Source: Aquibium oceanicum
GTDB lineage: Bacteria; Pseudomonadota; Alphaproteobacteria; Rhizobiales; Rhizobiaceae
Assembly: GCF_001889605.1 (NCBI RefSeq)
Contig: NZ_CP018171.1
Span: 4,114,501 to 4,178,500, forward strand
Length of the DNA: 64,000 nt
Direction: 5' to 3'
Part shown: in pieces, positions 26,280-33,447 of the stretch
Layout of the letters: every line of letters begins with the position of its first letter
Position numbering within the stretch: the stretch's first letter is position 1
Position numbers and translations under genes: made by a program
The notes under the pieces: generated by a model
What the model was told of the DNA's origin: nothing
Databases searched by the model: none
What the model saw: only the letters and a program-made list of their open reading frames with translations

Positions 26280-27182
26280 ATGACGACCTACAGCCATATG
26301 CGGAACCTGCCGGACACGGAACCGGTGCGCATCACCGTGGCGGGAACAGAACGCGTCTTCGACATCGACGACCCCAAGCTCCCCGACTGGATCAAGGACG
26401 CCGCGATGGCCTCCGGTGGCTACCCTTACAAGAAGAAGATGGACAAGAAGGACTACGAGGAGACGCTGGAGCGGCTGCAGATCGAACTCGTCAAGCTCCA
26501 GCTCTGGCTCCAGGCAACGGGCGAACGCGTCATGGCGATCTTCGAGGGGCGCGACGCGGCCGGCAAGGGCGGCACCATCTTCGTCCTGCGCCAGTACATG
26601 AACCCGCGCAGCGCCCGCAACGTCGCCCTCCCCAAGCCGACCGACCGCCAGCTCGGACAATGGTACTACCAGCGCTATGTCGAGCATTTCCCGACGGCCG
26701 GCGAGTTCGTGACCTTCGACCGCTCCTGGTACAACCGCGGCGTCGTCGAGCCGGTGAATGGCTTCTGCACCGAGGAGCAGTGCGAACGCTTCCTCGACGA
26801 GACGCCGACCTTCGAGCGCATGATCGTCAACGAAGGCATCCACTTCTTCAAGTTCTGGCTCAACATCGGGCAGGAAATGCAGCTCGAGCGTTTTCACGAC
26901 CGCCGCCACGATCCGCTCAAGATCTGGAAGTTCTCGCCGATCGACATCGCGGGCATGTCGAAGTGGGACGAGTACACGCAGGCGCGTGACAGGATGATGA
27001 AGCGCACCCACACAGAACACGCCCCCTGGATCCTGCTGCGCGCCAACGACAAGCGCCGCTCCCGGCTGGAGGTGATCAGGCGCATCCTCAAATCGCTCCC
27101 CTACGAGGGCCGCAACGACGACGCCATCGGCGAGGCGGACGAAAAGATCATCGGCAGCGGACCAGAAGGCATCGGCACCTAA
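26280..27182 (+). CDS. ppk2: Polyphosphate kinase 2
   Basis: The 300-residue cytoplasmic enzyme moves phosphate between polyphosphate and nucleotides. It has the PPK2 Walker A ([13 protein letters not shown], about residue 90), the Walker B-like [15 protein letters not shown] near 145, and lid-module residues in [31 protein letters not shown] before the ATG supports the start. The single-domain length fits class I PPK2. It diverges from phoR and shares its promoter region, so phosphate-dependent control is plausible. Confidence 0.93.
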
Positions 27183-27862
27183 ACCGCGCCCGCCGGTGCC
27201 GCACGCCCGGCGGCTGTCTTCTCCCCTGCCGCCTTCCTCAGTCCCCGGCTCCGTCGAAACCGCCGGTGTGGCGTCTTTTCCCAATAATGGGGGCGCCACA
27301 CGAGTTGGCCGATGGCGCGGTAGGCCGCGACCGACATCAGCAGCCAGTAGGGCACCGTCGAGAGGGCCGTCTTCCAGTAGCCGGCGCGGTCCCTCGGCGG
27401 CAAGCAGCGCCATCCCAACAGCAGGAACGATCCGTATCCCGCGGCGATGTTCATTCCCGACAGTCCGAGCAGCCAGCGCTCGTTCGGCACGAGAACACCC
27501 CACAGGGCCGACTTCCCGCACAAGAGGAGCGTCGTGCCCCACAGCAGCGGATGCAGCAGCGCCGACGCGATCAACCCGCCGAACAGGATCTGGAAGATGA
27601 GGAAGGAGCCAGCGCCAAGATCGCGATAGAGCCGGACCGGCTGACGCATGTGGACGAGCCACGTCTGCATCCAGCCCTTGTACCAACGGGTCCGCTGCCT
27701 GAGCCACACCATGATTTCCTCCGGTGCGTCCTCCAGGGTCGGCAGCGAGATGGTTGCGGTCCTGTACCCGAAGCGTTGCAGCCGCACGCCGAGATCGGCG
27801 TCCTCGGTGACGTTGTGCGGATCCCACCCGCCAACGTCGACCAGGGCTTCGCGGCGGAAATG
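27179..27862 (-). pseudogene. Glycosyltransferase family 2, C-terminal fragment (split by IS1595 element)
   Basis: The fragment encodes the C-terminal third of a processive-type family 2 glycosyltransferase: DADLGVRLQRFGYRTA (acceptor-site TED/DAD region), the QRTRWYKGWMQTW motif of the QxxRW class, then several membrane helices and a basic tail. The N-terminal part is at 32120-33447. The mobile element 27863-32119 lies between them. Joining the pieces with one copy of the 8-bp target duplication gives an uninterrupted frame of 667 residues. The fragment alone lacks the nucleotide-sugar site and should be inactive. Confidence 0.9.
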
Positions 27863-27887
27863 CGGCCTTATGTATCAAGAGCACCAA
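27863..27887 (+). repeat. Left terminal inverted repeat of the IS1595-type element
   Basis: The 25 bases match the reverse complement of 32095-32119 exactly. The matching stops at 27888 (G here, A in the other end). Confidence 0.95.
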
Positions 27888-27972
27888 GCCCGGCGATCAC
27901 CTCGCCGAAGGGCGGTGAGGCGTGAGCGCGCTGGCGGCACTGGCCGCGTTGGGCAATTCATGCAGTAGGCTT

Positions 27973-29049
27973 CTAAGCTTCAACTCCCCTAAATTGGCGA
28001 TCGTAATTGTAAGCCTCATTTTGAGCTACGGAACCGGCAATGCGAAATCTTCCGTTCTCGTATTTGAAGCAATACCCCCTCACGAAATCGCCACCAGCGA
28101 TGCCAGAATATATGACGTAGCCAATCAGGAAGGTTGGCTTCACAAAAATTCCGTCCAGTTCTTTCGGGGGCGAGCGAATAGGTGGTGCGTCAAATACACC
28201 GATGAACTCTGCTGTACCCTTGTTGTTTCGAAAGACCTTCGTTTTCTCGCCGGCTTGGCCTTCGAATCGCTTCCCGTACTTGATGAACGGGCCGCCTGTA
28301 AGAGGTTCCGACAGCCCTCCATCGGGCGGTACAACTTCTCCATTAGGTATCAGACGACCATGCTTGTCATCCGGCTCTATGACGGCGGGCAGCGCATTTT
28401 GTTCGTCTATGACCACCACCTTTTGGTAGTCACGCCGCAGGATGGCCGGCATCCTTCCATAGTTGGCGTAGCAAAATGCCAACGGGGATTCGCTCCCGTC
28501 CTCATGTACTTTCGGTACTTCCAATATCTCTATGATGATGAAAGGGCGTTCTATTCCGATGAGCGCCGCTTTCGTTATCTCAACAGAGTCTTCTGCAGCC
28601 TTGGTGGCGGCAGCAGCTTGAATCGCCATGTCCTCGGCGGAGTCAGCAGCCCGCCTCGTGTGGTGCAGAGTGCCTATGATGGCAACGAGGGCCGCAGCGG
28701 TCAGCCCGACCGTCATCGCAGTCGCGATGAGCATCCACAGCCCCCACAAGGCCATTTCCTGCTGGGCCTGCAAATCTTCGCTGGATTCGTTTTCGCGGTC
28801 GTGGGCTGCTATCTTTTCATCGAGGCAAGCGATGAAAGCGTCCCCCGGTCGGAGGCCGCACGTTTGAACTATATCGTCGCGGGTAGCCTGTCTTTGGCGC
28901 TCAGCGTGTTCCTGATAGCGCTCATAAACTTCGTTCTGTTCTGACCAGTGTTGAAGAACGATCCCGTAGAGAATTCCGATGACGCACAGAGCGCCAACGC
29001 CTAAAACTATCGCAGATGTAAGTTTTCCGAACCAATCGCGTTTAGGCAT
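27973..29049 (-). CDS. Passenger gene: hypothetical two-pass membrane protein
   Basis: The 358-residue protein has an N-terminal hydrophobic helix (LTSAIVLGVGALCVIGILYG), a charged helical stretch with two cysteines (QTCGLRPGDAFIACLDEKI), a second membrane segment (LWGLWMLIATAMTVGLTAA) and a soluble beta-rich C-terminal domain of about 200 residues. No family is recognised with confidence. Its start lies inside the end of the upstream small HTH-like gene (43-base overlap), so the two are one operon. The DNA is AT-richer than the host genes, consistent with cargo of foreign origin. Confidence 0.7.
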   Translation of the reverse strand: MPKRDWFGKLTSAIVLGVGALCVIGILYGIVLQHWSEQNEVYERYQEHAERQRQATRDDIVQTCGLRPGDAFIACLDEKIAAHDRENESSEDLQAQQEMALWGLWMLIATAMTVGLTAAALVAIIGTLHHTRRAADSAEDMAIQAAAATKAAEDSVEITKAALIGIERPFIIIEILEVPKVHEDGSESPLAFCYANYGRMPAILRRDYQKVVVIDEQNALPAVIEPDDKHGRLIPNGEVVPPDGGLSEPLTGGPFIKYGKRFEGQAGEKTKVFRNNKGTAEFIGVFDAPPIRSPPKELDGIFVKPTFLIGYVIYSGIAGGDFVRGYCFKYENGRFRIAGSVAQNEAYNYDRQFRGVEA

Positions 29050-29249
29050 TGAAGCAAGAATGCAGCACTGAAGCCCCCCCGGCTTATCTTGTTGTTCAGG
29101 TTACGCTCGGTTTCGTGAATGTCCATAGCCGCCAGTTTCTCGGCTAGCTGGGCATAGGTCACGCCCTTCCGCTTCAACTCCCCCTTGAGCAGATTCTTCG
29201 CCCGCGTCTCGTATTCCACGTTGACGGGGTTGTCCTTGCGCGTCGCCAT
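29007..29249 (-). CDS. Passenger gene: small DUF6471-like helix-turn-helix protein
   Basis: The 80-residue protein matches what I know of DUF6471: NVEYETRAKNLLKGELKRKG, then TYAQLAEKLAAMDIHETERN and NNKISRGGFSAAFLLQCLNAIG, which reads as a Cro-like helix-turn-helix. The ATG at 29249 follows TGGAGG. Two dyads lie just upstream in the gap before the divergent transposase, so it may repress itself and the transposase. That role is inference. Confidence 0.7.
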   Translation of the reverse strand: MATRKDNPVNVEYETRAKNLLKGELKRKGVTYAQLAEKLAAMDIHETERNLNNKISRGGFSAAFLLQCLNAIGSENLHLR

Positions 29250-29263
29250 GCCGCTACCTCCAG

Positions 29264-29301
29264 ATATCATCATTTTCGATGATATACACCATTGACAATG
29301 G
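29264..29301. promoter_or_regulatory. Two dyads between the passenger operon and the transposase
   Basis: ATATCATC/GATGATAT (29264-29271 and 29278-29285) and CCATTG-A-CAATGG (29289-29301) are perfect inverted repeats in the 102-base gap between divergent genes. They are likely operators, possibly for the HTH-like passenger protein. Confidence 0.6.
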
Positions 29302-29351
29302 GGACGTAAACCATCATATCAGGTGAAGAACATCACCGGATACGATGACAA

Positions 29352-30317
29352 ATGGCACAGCACTTCCTCCTTTCCGCCGAAGCCCGAACCCTCTCCCTCA
29401 AGGACATCTACAAGGGTGGCGAGGCAAAGGCTTATGAGGCGTTCAAGCGTCTCCGCTGGCAGGAGACCGAGGGCGAGCCGGTTTGCCCGAAGTGCGGATG
29501 CCTGGACCATTACGAGATCAGCACCCGCCGCAAGTTCAAGTGCGCTGCCTGCGGTGCGCAGTTCTCCGTTACGTCCGGCACGATCTTCGCTTCCCGCAAG
29601 ATGGCCTTCACCGATCTGCTGGCCGCGATCTGCATTTTCGTCAACGCCGCGAAGGGCCTTTCCGCCCTCCAGCTCTCGCGCGATATCGACTGCCAGTACA
29701 AGACGGCCTTCGTTCTGGCGCACAAGCTTCGCGAGGCTCTTGCCGCCGAGACGGCCGGCATGGACCTGTCAGGCGAAGTCGAGATCGATGGCGCCCACTT
29801 CGGCGGCCACGTCCGCCCGGAGAACCGCAAGGAAGACCGGAAGGACCGTCGCGTGAAGGAAAACCAGTCCGACCGTCGCCGCGTCGTGGTGGCCCTTCGC
29901 CAGCGCGGCGGACGCACCCTGTCCTTCGTTCGCCACTCGGAAGCGGAAGGCGTCGAGATCGCCCGCGCTCGCATGGTTGCCAAGGCCGAACTGTTCGCCG
30001 ATGAGGCTAGCCACTGGGATGCGCTGGAAATCGATTACAAGAGCACCCGCATCAACCACAGCGTCTCCTACAGCGACGGCCACGGCAAGCATACCAACTG
30101 GGTTGAAAGCTACTTCTCCCGCCTTCGCCGCATGGTCGGTGGCCAGCACCACCACGTCAGCCACAAGTACCTGTACCAGTACGCCAACCACGCCGCTTGG
30201 CTGGAGGACCATCGTCGCCGCTCGAATGGTGGCAACGCCTCGGCGCTACTCGGTGGTGCGCTCAATCATCCGGTGTCGCGCGTGTGGGCGGGATATTGGC
30301 AGCGTTCCGCAGCGTGA
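29352..30317 (+). CDS. IS1595 family (ISXO2-like) transposase
   Basis: The 321-residue protein has the N-terminal zinc ribbon of IS1595/ISXO2 transposases (CPKCG and CAACG) and the catalytic domain. The latter shows the first Asp in VEIDGAHFGGH near residue 145, the DEAS segment, and the C-terminal HTNWVESYFSRLRRM that supplies the last acidic residue. SYSDGHGKHTN precedes it. The gene is complete and uninterrupted, so the element is probably still mobile. Confidence 0.93.
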   Translation: MAQHFLLSAEARTLSLKDIYKGGEAKAYEAFKRLRWQETEGEPVCPKCGCLDHYEISTRRKFKCAACGAQFSVTSGTIFASRKMAFTDLLAAICIFVNAAKGLSALQLSRDIDCQYKTAFVLAHKLREALAAETAGMDLSGEVEIDGAHFGGHVRPENRKEDRKDRRVKENQSDRRRVVVALRQRGGRTLSFVRHSEAEGVEIARARMVAKAELFADEASHWDALEIDYKSTRINHSVSYSDGHGKHTNWVESYFSRLRRMVGGQHHHVSHKYLYQYANHAAWLEDHRRRSNGGNASALLGGALNHPVSRVWAGYWQRSAA

Positions 30318-30389
30318 GAATAGGTGTGGAAAGACTTGCCGGATTGCAACTCTAGGATTCGACAGCCGCGACAGAATCGCTGAAATAGA

Positions 30390-30422
30390 AAGGTCGATGC
30401 GAGGTTCAGTCGCATCGACCTT
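30390..30422. repeat. Perfect 13-bp inverted repeat downstream of the transposase
   Basis: AAGGTCGATGCGA (30390-30402) and TCGCATCGACCTT (30410-30422) pair perfectly around a seven-base loop. No T-run follows. It may protect or end the transposase transcript, or act as a recombination or replication signal within the element. Confidence 0.7.
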
Positions 30423-30530
30423 GGAAGTAACCAGCCGGTAGGGGCTGGCCGCGTGATCACCGCCCCACAATTAGACGTGTGGCGGGAGCAGTCAATCCCC
30501 TGCCGGCCCTATTCAGCGAAAGGGCCGATC

Positions 30531-30731
30531 ATGGCTTTAGATTATCCACAACCGTATCAACTGACGTTTGATGATGCCGTCGATATCTGGCTCCGCCATT
30601 GGGCGGGCGAGTATCAGCATCACATCGCCGGCTCGTTTCGGGTGAACCCCGGCCGGGTGAACGATGTCCTGAAAGGACGGAAACATGCCGGGAGCGAGCA
30701 GGTAGCCGCCTCAAAAAGGAGGGCTGCCTAA
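30531..30731 (+). CDS. Passenger gene: small hypothetical protein (66 residues)
   Basis: The product is a short protein with two helices around a basic HTH-like turn (LTFDDAVDIWLRHWAGEYQHHIAGSF, then VNPGRVNDVLKGRKH). The pattern recalls small phage-type DNA-binding proteins in which the segment before GRVNDVLKG is a recognition helix. Its stop overlaps the ATG of the next gene (TAATG), so they form an operon. No specific family is claimed. Confidence 0.6.
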   Translation: MALDYPQPYQLTFDDAVDIWLRHWAGEYQHHIAGSFRVNPGRVNDVLKGRKHAGSEQVAASKRRAA

Positions 30732-31018
30732 TGGCTGGTGATGTTCACACTATCCTTTGCGGCGTCTGCAAAGTGCCGCTCCAAGGACCTAGTGACGGCA
30801 AGGACGACAACGTGTTCTCCTGCCCCTCTTGCGGGGCCAGCGACACACGTAAGGAAGTCCTTCGCATTGTGACTGAGCATGTAGAGGAAGTCACGGCGCG
30901 CGCCTTTCAGGAAGGCTTCCGAAAGGCGCTTCGGGGCAACAAGTTCGTGAAGGCCACGGGAAAGCCCGTCCCAAAGCGATTCCACAAGTACATCTCGGAC
31001 TTCAACCCGAAGATCTGA
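30731..31018 (+). CDS. Passenger gene: small zinc-ribbon protein
   Basis: The 95-residue protein has two CxxC knuckles (LCGVCKVPL and FSCPSCGAS), expected to bind one zinc, followed by a helical, basic C-terminal half (RAFQEGFRKALRGNKFVKATG). It is coupled to the preceding gene by start/stop overlap. A GC hairpin with TTCG loop follows its stop. Function is unknown. Confidence 0.6.
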   Translation: MAGDVHTILCGVCKVPLQGPSDGKDDNVFSCPSCGASDTRKEVLRIVTEHVEEVTARAFQEGFRKALRGNKFVKATGKPVPKRFHKYISDFNPKI

Positions 31019-31030
31019 CATAGCACTACC

Positions 31031-31048
31031 GGCGGGCTTCGGCCCGCC
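31031..31048 (+). terminator. GC hairpin with TTCG loop after the zinc-ribbon gene
   Basis: GGCGGGC (31031-31037) pairs with GCCCGCC (31042-31048) around a TTCG tetraloop, 13 bases past the stop codon. The following sequence is only moderately T-rich, so termination may be imperfect. The rest of the gap to 31344 shows no gene I can support. Confidence 0.55.
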
Positions 31049-31344
31049 GCCTTCTATCTCTGATTATCATGTGCTATCGCTAGGCGGTGGCGGGTCTGAG
31101 TGATGACGCGCGAAAATTGTTACGTCCAGAACGTGCCGCCCTGGGGCGGTCAGGCCCGCCGCTCCCACATCACGTTCCCCTTCGCATCCGCAACGCCAAG
31201 ACCCGTATTGGTTCGCTATCCCTGACAACCCGTGTTAAGTTTCGGCATCGTCGGCGACTTGCACAGGCAAGCTGACGCTTGAGAGACACCCCCTTTTTGC
31301 AGAACGGGTTTGCGCTCCCGCCTCATGGTATGAGGAGCTTTTCC

Positions 31345-31545
31345 ATGCCCACAATCTCTATTCGATGCCTTCATTGCGGCGTGTCCAACGATCTTACGGT
31401 TCAGGGCGAAATCCTCAAAAGCGAGGAGGTCTCATGCTCCAGCTGCCACGGCTCGCTCGGAACGTGGGGGAAGCTGACTGAGACGATGGTTCTCAACCCC
31501 GCCGCTCCCATCGAAGATTCCCATTCTTATCAGTTGCCGACTTAA
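31345..31545 (+). CDS. Passenger gene: second small zinc-ribbon protein
   Basis: The 66-residue protein contains two CxxC knuckles (RCLHCGVS and SCSSCHGS), a pattern of a small zinc ribbon like that in the gene at 30731. GGAG lies nine bases before the ATG at 31345. Its last 53 bases overlap a convergent gene. Function is unknown. Confidence 0.5.
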   Translation: MPTISIRCLHCGVSNDLTVQGEILKSEEVSCSSCHGSLGTWGKLTETMVLNPAAPIEDSHSYQLPT

Positions 31546-31942
31546 CCTCCCCAGCCTCCCGCATAGCCCGTAGGGCCTTCCCCACTCGCCTTGTGAGATC
31601 GGCGAGGTACTTGCGGTCCCGCGCATCCTCGCCGCGTATGGCGACGATCTCTCGGGCGATGTCGCGGCTGGATAGCGGGCCTTCCGCGTGCCGTAGCTCG
31701 CCATAGATGGCCTTGGACAGTTCACCCTTGCCGAAGAGCACCTCGCGCTTCTGGCGGGGCATGGCGGCGTCCAGATCGCCGGTATAGCCGAGCACGTTCA
31801 AGGTTCGATCCATTGCGCCGATGTCGTTCTTGATCTCGGCAAGGCGGTCCCGAATGCGCTCCGCTTCGTTGAACAGATCGGCGCGCTTTTTGAGCAGGCC
31901 GGTGATCGTATGTTCGAAGGTATCGGTGCGCGCTGGTCTCAT
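31493..31942 (-). CDS. Passenger gene: coiled-coil protein with winged-helix-like C terminus
   Basis: The 149-residue protein begins with a coiled coil (TITGLLKKRADLFNEAERIRDRLAEIKNDIGAM) and ends with a winged-helix-like region (SSRDIAREIVAIRGEDARDR, then LTRRVGKALRAMREAGEVK). Similar proteins are, as I recall, common hypothetical genes in rhizobial accessory DNA. A longer start at 32008 is possible; I prefer 31942 because the recurrent part starts there. It is convergent with, and overlaps, the small zinc-ribbon gene. Confidence 0.6.
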   Translation of the reverse strand: MRPARTDTFEHTITGLLKKRADLFNEAERIRDRLAEIKNDIGAMDRTLNVLGYTGDLDAAMPRQKREVLFGKGELSKAIYGELRHAEGPLSSRDIAREIVAIRGEDARDRKYLADLTRRVGKALRAMREAGEVKSATDKNGNLRWERRG

Positions 31943-32094
31943 GTAATAATAATCTCGGTGCGACTGGTTAAGTCGCCAAATGCACTCGGCTGACAGGTGT
32001 TCTGGCATAAAGCCCCAGTTCAGGGGACCTGTCAGCCGTCAGTGAGGCCACGCGCGGATTGTAGGGGAATCACGGCCTTTCCGCTTCCGGATGT

Positions 32095-32119
32095 TTGGTG
32101 CTCTTGATACATAAGGCCG
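32095..32119 (-). repeat. Right terminal inverted repeat of the IS1595-type element
   Basis: These 25 bases are the exact reverse complement of the left end at 27863-27887 and are followed by the second copy of the 8-bp duplication (32120-32127). Confidence 0.95.
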
Positions 32120-33447
32120 CGGAAATGATTGGAGGTTCCGCCGAGCGGGATGAGCAGGTCGTTTGACGACAGCCAGGGGAGGATGCCCCGGAACAGGGCC
32201 GCGTATTCGAGCCGGAACATGAAGGGCAGGATGCCGTAGCGCCCGTTGGTGATCGAAAGCGGCGCCTGCACGCAGGCGAGATCGTCGCCTTCGTCGCGGA
32301 ACCGCGCCCATGCCTCGCGAAGCTGCATGGGATGCGGCCTGTCTTCCGCGTCGTAGAGCGCGATCAGTTCTCCGCCGGCGAGCGGCAGGGCGAAGGAGAG
32401 CGCCTTCGGTTTCGTGCGGGGCTCGCTCGGTGGCACTTTGATGACTTCCACCCAGGGACGGAGCGTCTGTCGCCCGATCGCCGCGAGCGTCGCCTCGTCG
32501 TCCTCCTCGCAGACCAGCTTGATTTCCAGCTTGCTGCGCGGCCAGTCGAGCCCGGCAAGCGCTGCGAGCAGGTCGGGGATCACCTCGGCCTCGCTATGGA
32601 GCGCGACGAGCACCGTATAGGCGGGAAGATCGGCGTCCGCGGGACGGGCGCCGAGGCGGACCTCGTCGCCGATCGTTTCCGATACGGCCGATGCCAGCCG
32701 CAGGCCGATGCAGCCCAGGAACAATGTGGAGAAGCAGGCATAGACCGAAAGCGCGGTCACGACCGGCGCGAGGAAAAGGAGCACGGGCACGGCGACGATC
32801 GCAACGCCGACGAAAAACGCCTGCCAGGAATCGGTGATAAACCGGGCCGACATGGCAGGCCACACATTGAACAGACCGCGGCACGCCTCCCGCAGCAGAT
32901 GCGCGTGCACCCGTGCGAGAAGCGCTGCCCTCAGCGTGGACGGACTGGCGACCACGAGGCGCGACGCGAGCCGCGGCCGGCGCGCCAGCAGCGCCTTGAA
33001 CGCGATGATGTCGAGCTTCACCGGCGCGATCACAAGGAGCGTTTCGGCGCCTCCGTTTTCCAACAAAGACATGCCGCTGCCGCGCGCGCTCCTGAGCGCG
33101 GCCAGCGCACCGGCTTCTCCCGTCAGCAAGCGGGCCGGGTCGATCGCGTCCAGAAACGGCAATCCGAGTTCGGCGGAGAGTGCCCGAAAATGCGCGTCCT
33201 CCGGCACGATGCCGGACGAAAGCAATTCGGAATGCAGGCACGTCCGGTTGACCCGGGCGCGCTCCGCCAGCCGCATGGCGACGTCGTCCGTCAGCCTGAG
33301 CCTCGCCAGGAAACCGTCCCAGCCGTTCAGCAGGCGCAGACGATCAAGAAGCCGAACGCCCTCCGACCAGCCACCGATCCCCGGTGGCGGGCCGGCAGCC
33401 GGATCACGCCGGCGGCCAAGGCCGGGCGGAAGACCCCTGTCCCCCAT
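32120..33447 (-). pseudogene. Glycosyltransferase family 2, N-terminal fragment with MshEN-like domain
   Basis: The N-terminal two thirds of the interrupted glycosyltransferase. Residues about 30-140 resemble the MshEN (GspE N-terminal) domain (LRLTDDVAMRLAERARVNRT, then LSAELGLPFLDAI), a domain known to bind cyclic di-GMP in some ATPases. Two membrane helices follow, then the GT-A domain start YTVLVALHSEAEVIPDLL and the DxD-like ALYDAEDRPHP. The frame runs into the element and ends there. The acceptor and QxxRW parts are in the fragment at 27179-27862. Confidence 0.9.

Follow-up and report, generated by a model that had tools for sequence, protein, structure and literature searches.

Positions 27863 to 32119 of a 64,000-nucleotide stretch of the Aquibium oceanicum genome (contig NZ_CP018171.1, positions 4,114,501 to 4,178,500; hereafter, the window) are occupied by a complete transposon of the IS1595 family, 4,257 bp long, whose limits agree exactly with those given in an earlier note made from the letters of this DNA. 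In our reading, which as a whole we consider very likely, the element combines a core of three genes with two cargo bays whose contents are exchanged among relatives and with a pair of antisense genes, f2 and G, together with the regulation, exchange, and translation proposed below. The features of the element and its edges, in window coordinates, are as follows.

27855-27862: left target-site duplication, CGGAAATG
27863-27887: left terminal inverted repeat (IRL), 25 bp, with an end matrix drawn from 54 relatives as further evidence
27922-28944, plus strand: G, antisense open reading frame (ORF) of 340 amino acids (aa) with a GTG start and a hydrophobic N terminus, in the frame exactly complementary to f2
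27973-29049, minus strand: f2, left-bay membrane protein, 358 aa, its start overlapping the 3' end of the DUF6471 gene by 43 nucleotides (nt)
29007-29273, minus strand: DUF6471 protein, core, putative helix-turn-helix (HTH) repressor, conserved start probably at 29249
29264-29285: putative operator 1, a palindrome (ATATCATCATTTTCGATGATAT) within the divergent promoter region
29312-29347: putative operator 2, a further set of related half-sites that precedes the transposase gene
29352-30317, plus strand: IS1595-family transposase, 321 aa
30531-30731, plus strand: C, small HTH-like protein, 66 aa, with a longer reading possible from a GTG at 30453
30731-31018, plus strand: D, zinc-ribbon protein, 95 aa, its start overlapping the stop of C (TAATG)
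31031-31048: GC-rich hairpin after D (GGCGGGC-TTCG-GCCCGCC), found by direct reading
31345-31545, plus strand: E, possible second zinc-ribbon protein, 66 aa, the least certain gene
31493-32008, minus strand: F, right-end core protein with a coiled coil and a winged helix, its start probably at 31942 (149 aa)
32095-32119: right terminal inverted repeat (IRR), 25 bp
32120-32127: right target-site duplication, CGGAAATG

The two terminal repeats match at 25 of 25 positions in inverted orientation and CGGAAATG abuts both of them, as the earlier note had claimed in describing perfect ends and an 8-bp duplication. When the flanks are rejoined with a single copy of CGGAAATG, they form an uninterrupted minus-strand frame, and this restored host frame indicates a genuine insertion. 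The interrupted host gene (27179-27862 plus 32128-33447, minus strand) is glycosyltransferase-like, judged by eye only. The transposase contains the Pfam domain DDE_Tnp_IS1595 (2.9e-34) and the IS1595 zinc ribbon and also matches the NCBIfam IS1595 model. The element therefore has the domain, the zinc ribbon, the 8-bp duplication, and the terminal inverted repeats by which membership in the IS1595 family is judged, and, as in a transporter insertion sequence (IS), passenger genes unrelated to transposition are located between its ends. It probably belongs to the ISNha5 type within that family. In ISfinder, the ISNha5 subgroup has ends of the form CGGnnTT and a size of about 3.4 to 7.9 kb; the window element, with CGGCCTT ends and 4,257 bp, would fit this pattern, and its relatives go down to 2,346 bp. 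The A. oceanicum genome (5.32 Mb, two contigs) has a single full copy. Elsewhere in it are a distant IS1595-type transposase (C1:4949601-4950470) with 32% identity and a fragment (C1:4919027-4919128) of 34 residues at 68%.

The transposase gave 124 matches in species genomes, of which 80 loci, referred to here by L numbers, were kept for analysis. Both ends were recognized by the score matrix in 65 of the 80 relatives, and these, together with the window element, form the set of 66 complete elements; the 15 loci without both ends were excluded from it. A perfect 8-bp duplication was present in 60 of the 65 two-ended relatives, and frequencies of this order argue that the element structure is not a product of chance. 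The relatives range from 2,346 to 6,623 bp, with a median of 3,480 bp.

Across these elements, DUF6471, the IS1595 transposase, and the end-proximal winged-helix protein F make up a fixed core of three genes. The protein that the earlier note described as HTH-like is DUF6471 (Pfam, 2e-32); it is divergent to the transposase in all 66 complete elements, and tblastn located it in 77 of the 80 loci, the three without it being L009, L029, and L074. F adjoins the right end in 65 of 66 complete elements. In the exception, L033, an F-like protein follows the transposase on the opposite strand, as seen by eye. Two of the six genes that had been counted as passengers, DUF6471 and the coiled-coil/winged-helix protein, are thus core genes. 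Profiles were built from 43 of the 66 called F proteins, 27 f2 proteins, and 22 DUF6471 proteins. F is predicted to fold as one long helix with a winged helix after it (mean predicted local distance difference test [pLDDT] score, 88); fold comparison gave generic winged-helix similarity only, with no match at an E value of 0.001 or below, the sequence profile found no convincing relative of solved structure, and a search of phages found no F. Outside its own genome, F occurs at 15 loci from 14 of 288 other genomes of the class. A transposase lies nearby at 11 of these loci, three more have an adjoining element end, and one has neither. F therefore marks the element, since 14 of the 15 foreign loci have a transposase and/or an end. 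The earlier note had named, as the result that would overturn it, passenger genes occurring mostly as fixed chromosomal genes without these ends, and for F this is not what was found.

The 3' ends of the core genes bound two bays, a left one from IRL to DUF6471 and a right one from the transposase to F. Among 178 pairs of elements with transposase DNA at least 80% identical, the fraction that could be aligned averaged 1% for the left bay and 0.6% for the right bay; the corresponding averages were 37% for DUF6471 and 17% for the F region. A right-bay gene family was common to 6 of 91 pairs at a transposase identity of at least 90% and to 25 of 977 pairs at 60 to 70%, counts that rest on genes chosen by the gene caller with the C family added by hand (the class of at least 90% is unaffected by the addition). 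Cargo turnover is thus nearly complete while the transposase stays, which answers the question raised in the earlier note of whether cargo varies around a constant transposase. DUF6471 and F, to judge from their median identities, also reassort among elements: these were 65% and 34%, respectively, in the class of at least 90% transposase identity and 59% and 28% in the class of 60 to 70%. In 12 pairs examined, homology stops 0 to 13 nt before the transposase stop, and in 11 of the 12 it restarts no more than about 76 nt from the F 3' end, one of the 11 restarts being a 24-nt match only. No common bay-boundary motif was evident by eye among the flanks listed for the 66 elements, apart from the loose motif GACTCCAC at some left ends of elements lacking f2. 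We propose that the bays are exchanged through recombination between elements in the shared core.

The left bay of the window element is occupied by f2, which belongs to a family found in 29 of the 66 complete elements. The 26 f2 proteins compared are only 15 to 28% identical to that of the window, and the N terminus, which lies outside the overlap with G, is similar across many members. In the structural model, two long N-terminal helices with hydrophobic segments precede a beta-rich C-terminal part. Opposite f2 lies G, a large plus-strand ORF (27922-28944) that was missing from the gene list of the earlier note, which was in this respect incomplete. A G-type ORF of 254 to 340 codons is found opposite f2 in 29 of 29 f2-bearing complete elements, starting at a distance of 26 to 80 nt from the element's left tip and always in the frame exactly complementary to f2.

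The codons TTA, CTA, and TCA, which read as stops on the opposite strand, are confined to f2 codons 1 to 36, that is, up to the stop of G. Past codon 36, the 29 distinct f2 genes (L020 and L129 have the same gene, entered once, under L129) contain none among 7,780 codons, compared with 122.3 expected from the codon use of the same elements and 94.9 predicted from transposase codon use. The nominal log10 P of the depletion is -57, based on own-element codon use and with codons treated as independent. In 7,458 codons examined, the exact antisense frame had 0 stops, the other two antisense frames had 241 and 451, and the same-strand off-frames of f2 had 267 and 409. Both frames are thus open beyond what codon use predicts, and these sequence comparisons give good support to f2 and G as a pair of antisense overlapping genes. 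GC-rich genes often have shadow ORFs in this phase, and it could be argued that the element is an ordinary transporter IS in which G is such a shadow, open because GC-rich coding rarely uses TTA, CTA, or TCA. The transposase genes are indeed low in these codons (1.09 per 100), and the amino acid sequence of G is weakly constrained. We nonetheless regard this explanation as improbable, given that the remaining bay and core genes of these elements have 2.6 to 3.2 such codons per 100 and that the absence in f2 sets in only after codon 36.

Further evidence on the shadow explanation comes from f2 homologs in different surroundings. We surveyed distinct f2-like ORFs of at least 180 codons and called them open when they had no antisense stop after codon 40. 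All 52 ORFs located beside an element end, or beside a transposase and a full DUF6471, were open. Beside incomplete markers (DUF6471 or part of it in eight cases and a transposase fragment in one), four of nine were open and five were not. Without any marker, only one of six was open, the other five having such codons, a difference from the intact-linked ORFs with a Fisher P of 1.3e-6. In L156, L158, L164, and L170, f2 stands beside partial DUF6471 remnants and has antisense stops, with f2 itself still open. A lead from this survey, in which only open f2 frames were sampled, is that G may be lost first as an element decays.

The reverse possibility, that G is the sole real gene and f2 its shadow, would be in keeping with the conserved kind of N terminus and start position of G and with the left bays of many elements lacking f2, which also have a plus-strand gene starting near IRL. 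It is very improbable in light of f2 homologs that have many antisense stops, such as L167 (E value of 6e-28, 11 inner stops, no marker) and L158 (9e-40, three inner stops, a DUF6471 remnant). Moreover, f2 third positions change fastest, and the f2 N terminus outside the overlap is alike across many members. The homolog collection covered f2 frames that stay open for 120 codons or more, a procedure in which stop-broken f2 frames go uncounted; f2 appears to be a gene independent of G because homologs with many antisense stops, 11 in L167, stay open. Outside the genome of the window, f2 was found at 15 loci, 7 with an element marker and 8 without, and none was found in plasmids. For this membrane protein, the result that the earlier note had named as overturning it was thus found in part.

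Two features at the start of G speak for the pair. The mean hydrophobicity over 11 residues of the N-terminal segment is at least 1.67 in 29 of 29 G proteins and at least 1.7 in 28 of 29, and three controls reach 1.7 in 18%, 42%, and 24% of cases. A strict Shine-Dalgarno-like motif is present at 9 of 29 G starts (6% background), and with two weaker motifs added the count is 16 of 29 (11% background). Several observations weigh against a functional pair. The hydrophobicity cutoff was set after the values had been seen, and 20 of the 29 G genes start without the strict Shine-Dalgarno motif. Over the overlap, f2 is better conserved than G in five of five close pairs, with f2 and G identities of.79 and.53,.80 and.68,.63 and.49,.59 and.55, and.57 and.37; as a check on noise, the same comparison over the 36 codons that precede the overlap, into which G does not extend, put the antisense reading ahead of f2 in two of four pairs. 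The third positions of f2 (.41,.32, and.42 in three pairs) change about as those of the transposase do (.31,.41, and.38), and mean column identity in the profile alignments is 14% for G and 19% for f2. G has no Pfam match and no relative of solved structure, and the C-terminal half of the f2 model is of low confidence (mean pLDDT, 64.9), so the fold is left unassigned. Among f2 homologs, the marker-free L176 is also open, as are the four of nine with incomplete markers. The lower conservation of G and the transposase-like third positions of f2 indicate that selection on G amino acids is apparently weak or diversifying, with openness being what is preserved.

On balance, we think it probable that f2 and G both encode working proteins, membrane-bound or exported, exactly antisense over roughly 250 to 330 codons, and that the pair arose through overprinting within the transposon lineage and has stayed open in many highly diverged copies. 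They would then be, for bacteria, an unusually widely conserved long antisense pair and a two-protein module inseparable by recombination, for example, a mutually antagonistic, addiction-like, or exclusion module. Under this proposal, both genes would be translated, f2 together with DUF6471 and G in the inward direction from IRL; two membrane or exported proteins would thereby be locked onto one stretch of DNA, and, through convergent antisense transcription, the expression of each would oppose that of the other. The f2 genes of L034 and L037, and likewise of L058 and L059, show DNA similarity over one half only, C-terminal or N-terminal, which suggests domain exchange within the f2/G overlap.

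The region between the divergent DUF6471 and transposase genes contains the two putative operators listed above. Among 77 elements, the distal and proximal operator halves of one element share 8.56 6-mers, compared with 4.90 after permutation, where the maximum over 500 permutations was 6.25. The test, which used dinucleotide shuffles along with permutations, omits L009 and L029, in which no DUF6471 was found. Palindromes with arms of at least 7 occur in 26 of 77 elements and in 59 of 308 dinucleotide shuffles, a modest excess that counts against the operators. Half-sites that match within elements more than between them fit an element-specific repressor acting on its own promoters, and DUF6471, presumed to bind DNA, is the natural candidate for it. 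We propose that DUF6471 represses the common DUF6471/transposase promoter through the matched operators of its own element, so that transposition would be released upon entry into a cell without the same repressor type and shut off later. F, whose start is just inside IRR, could be a DNA-binding accessory protein or a regulator.

The relatives carry mixed cargo, and many of their bay proteins fall into no known family. Right-bay ORFs shorter than 55 aa (9 of 95) were dropped and 86 were scanned; C and E of the window are outside the 95, as the simple gene caller missed both. Left-bay ORFs shorter than 90 aa (16 of 82) were dropped, and 66 were scanned. In Pfam, the 86 right-bay proteins gave nine matches to SocA_Panacea, three to Peptidase_M78, one to Gp49, and two each to HicA, Phd/YefM, RelE, ParE, MqsA-like, and DUF1902. 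Direct scans assigned toxin-antitoxin families in the right bays of 16 of 66 elements, and these families were located as follows.

SocA: right bays of L004, L005, L014, L027, L035, L036, L048, L049, and L059
ParE: right bays of L006 and L021
Gp49: right bay of L008
RelE: right bays of L019 and L079
HicA: right bays of L042 and L069

BstA-like proteins occur in 4 of 66 right bays, full-length in L026 and L075 (PADLOC PDLC02356, 9.5e-118 and 2.9e-122, respectively) and partial in L039 and L058, and L053 has a PDC-S05 candidate defense protein (PADLOC). The left-bay scan gave Peptidase_M78 in 3 of 66 proteins. The largest element, L064 (1569-8191, 6,623 bp), has a type IIG restriction-modification enzyme of 1,063 aa in its left bay; some 1 kb beyond its ends lies a second relative of the DUF6471-transposase pair. 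L011:7442-7726 was considered as Cas2-like, a reading set aside because it has no Pfam match. We propose that right-bay cargo has a stabilizing or protective role, in toxin-antitoxin or anti-phage fashion. The earlier suggestion of an accessory or defense module thus holds at the level of the family, with 16 of 66 elements for toxin-antitoxin families and 4 of 66 for BstA-like proteins; a defense role for the cargo of the window element itself lacks database support.

In the right bay of the window element, C belongs to a family (f8) with members in 8 of 66 elements. L073 has C and D in the same order, at identities of 69% and 50%, respectively. By tblastn, D is present in four elements, those of the window, L073, L139, and L141, the last two being elements on viral contigs with perfect duplications; the only other relative is a distant viral-contig protein (L120, 31%) without element markers, and D was found in none of 288 other genomes of the class and in no plasmids. 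C has matches in two plasmid records, that of R. gallicum having no surrounding element, and in 230 class genomes it was found in its own and as one weak match. The hairpin at 31031-31048 possibly ends a C-D transcript. E has no relative in the other 80 loci (tblastn E value of 0.01 or below).

We propose that the HTH/zinc-ribbon pair C-D fills the stabilizing or protective slot of the right bay. That C-D, with E, is itself a defense or toxin-antitoxin module of an undescribed kind is a tentative idea, to which we give somewhat less than even chances. C-D is an overlapping two-gene unit that occupies the slot of the toxin-antitoxin pairs or BstA of relatives, and its order is repeated in L073. 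Against this, f2, C, and D had no match in PADLOC, neither C nor D matches a Pfam or NCBIfam toxin or antitoxin family, as would be expected of a known type II toxin-antitoxin pair, and relatives of C occur without D in L013, L061, and L063. The failure of C-D to fit any toxin-antitoxin or defense model also detracts from the protective role proposed for the slot. The marker-free C relative on the R. gallicum plasmid, one of the two plasmid matches of C, is of the kind that the earlier note had said would contradict it; the distribution of D, four elements and one marker-free viral-contig protein, goes largely the other way. That C relative and the eight marker-free f2 loci could be taken to mean that the passengers are fixed chromosomal genes caught by chance, with no system of bays. 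The same plan with sharp boundaries in 66 complete elements, and the near confinement of D to elements, make this extremely improbable.

The order-level scan found matches at 1e-30 or better in 30 of 199 genomes, the window's own included, with one to three matches each, some of them distant only (28 to 37% identity), and a plasmid scan at 1e-20 found matches in 25 of 72,556 records. Some target duplications recur, namely CAGATCTG in L033, L039, L072, and L082, GATATTTC in L032, L040, and L071, and CAAATACC in L038, L042, and L054, which suggests a preferred and partly palindromic target. L046 and L069 enclose other transposase genes (Pfam DUF4096 and DUF772/DDE, placed by sequence), and the elements are therefore also landing sites. 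On a viral contig, L144 (4639-7225) is a derivative that has lost the transposase by internal deletion but has perfect ends flanked by an 8-bp duplication, and in L145, likewise on a viral contig, the 4-kb stretch compared is identical to it. The derivative retains F and f2/G, along with a DUF6471 remnant in fused form and a gene that by eye is SocA-like; it was possibly moved in trans or deleted after insertion.

The available text of PMC3129680 credits the transporter IS class within IS1595 to Siguier, Gagnevin, and Chandler (2009), and that of PMC8101967 records the ISNha5 group. The present elements resemble both in the transposase with its zinc-ribbon domain, the 8-bp duplication, the terminal repeats, and the passengers between the ends; they differ from them, as described in the texts searched, in the fixed core of three genes, the two bays, some toxin-antitoxin or anti-phage cargo, and the antisense pair. 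No paper describing this plan of core, bays, and antisense genes was found in a search outside which most subscription papers lie, and the search found nothing on DUF6471 or on BstA with IS1595. BstA is a prophage-borne abortive-infection protein; here it lies within the small transposons L026 and L075 and not in the window's element. The closest parallel for the cargo, in the parts of the source available, is found in Tn7-like transposons, the cargo of which is enriched in toxin-antitoxin modules and in defense against mobile genetic elements (Benler et al. 2021, PMC8649781). The present elements share that type of cargo and differ in having an IS1595-type transposase, a size of 2.3 to 6.6 kb, and two small bays bounded by the 3' ends of core genes. 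The family is a simple, compact vehicle for cargo that in some members includes toxin-antitoxin and anti-phage genes, found here mostly in alphaproteobacteria.

For the f2/G pair, the closest parallel in the literature consulted is the antisense overlapping genes of bacteria, in which, according to the portions available of PMC7457138 and PMC9927249, a long ORF is embedded antisense to a protein gene and is thought to have arisen by overprinting; faster evolution of embedded genes is noted there for viruses. The pair shares with these genes the long embedded ORF and bears on the debated functionality of long antisense overlapping genes in bacteria, a question that is directly testable here because the family offers many diverged replicates, a nominal 10^-57 depletion of stops, and overlap-free homologs as a control. 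It differs from the bacterial cases, as far as those portions describe them, in being borne by a transposon, in its presence in 29 of 66 elements with diverged f2 proteins, and in the kind of evidence, which is evolutionary here and consists of transcript and ribosome data there.

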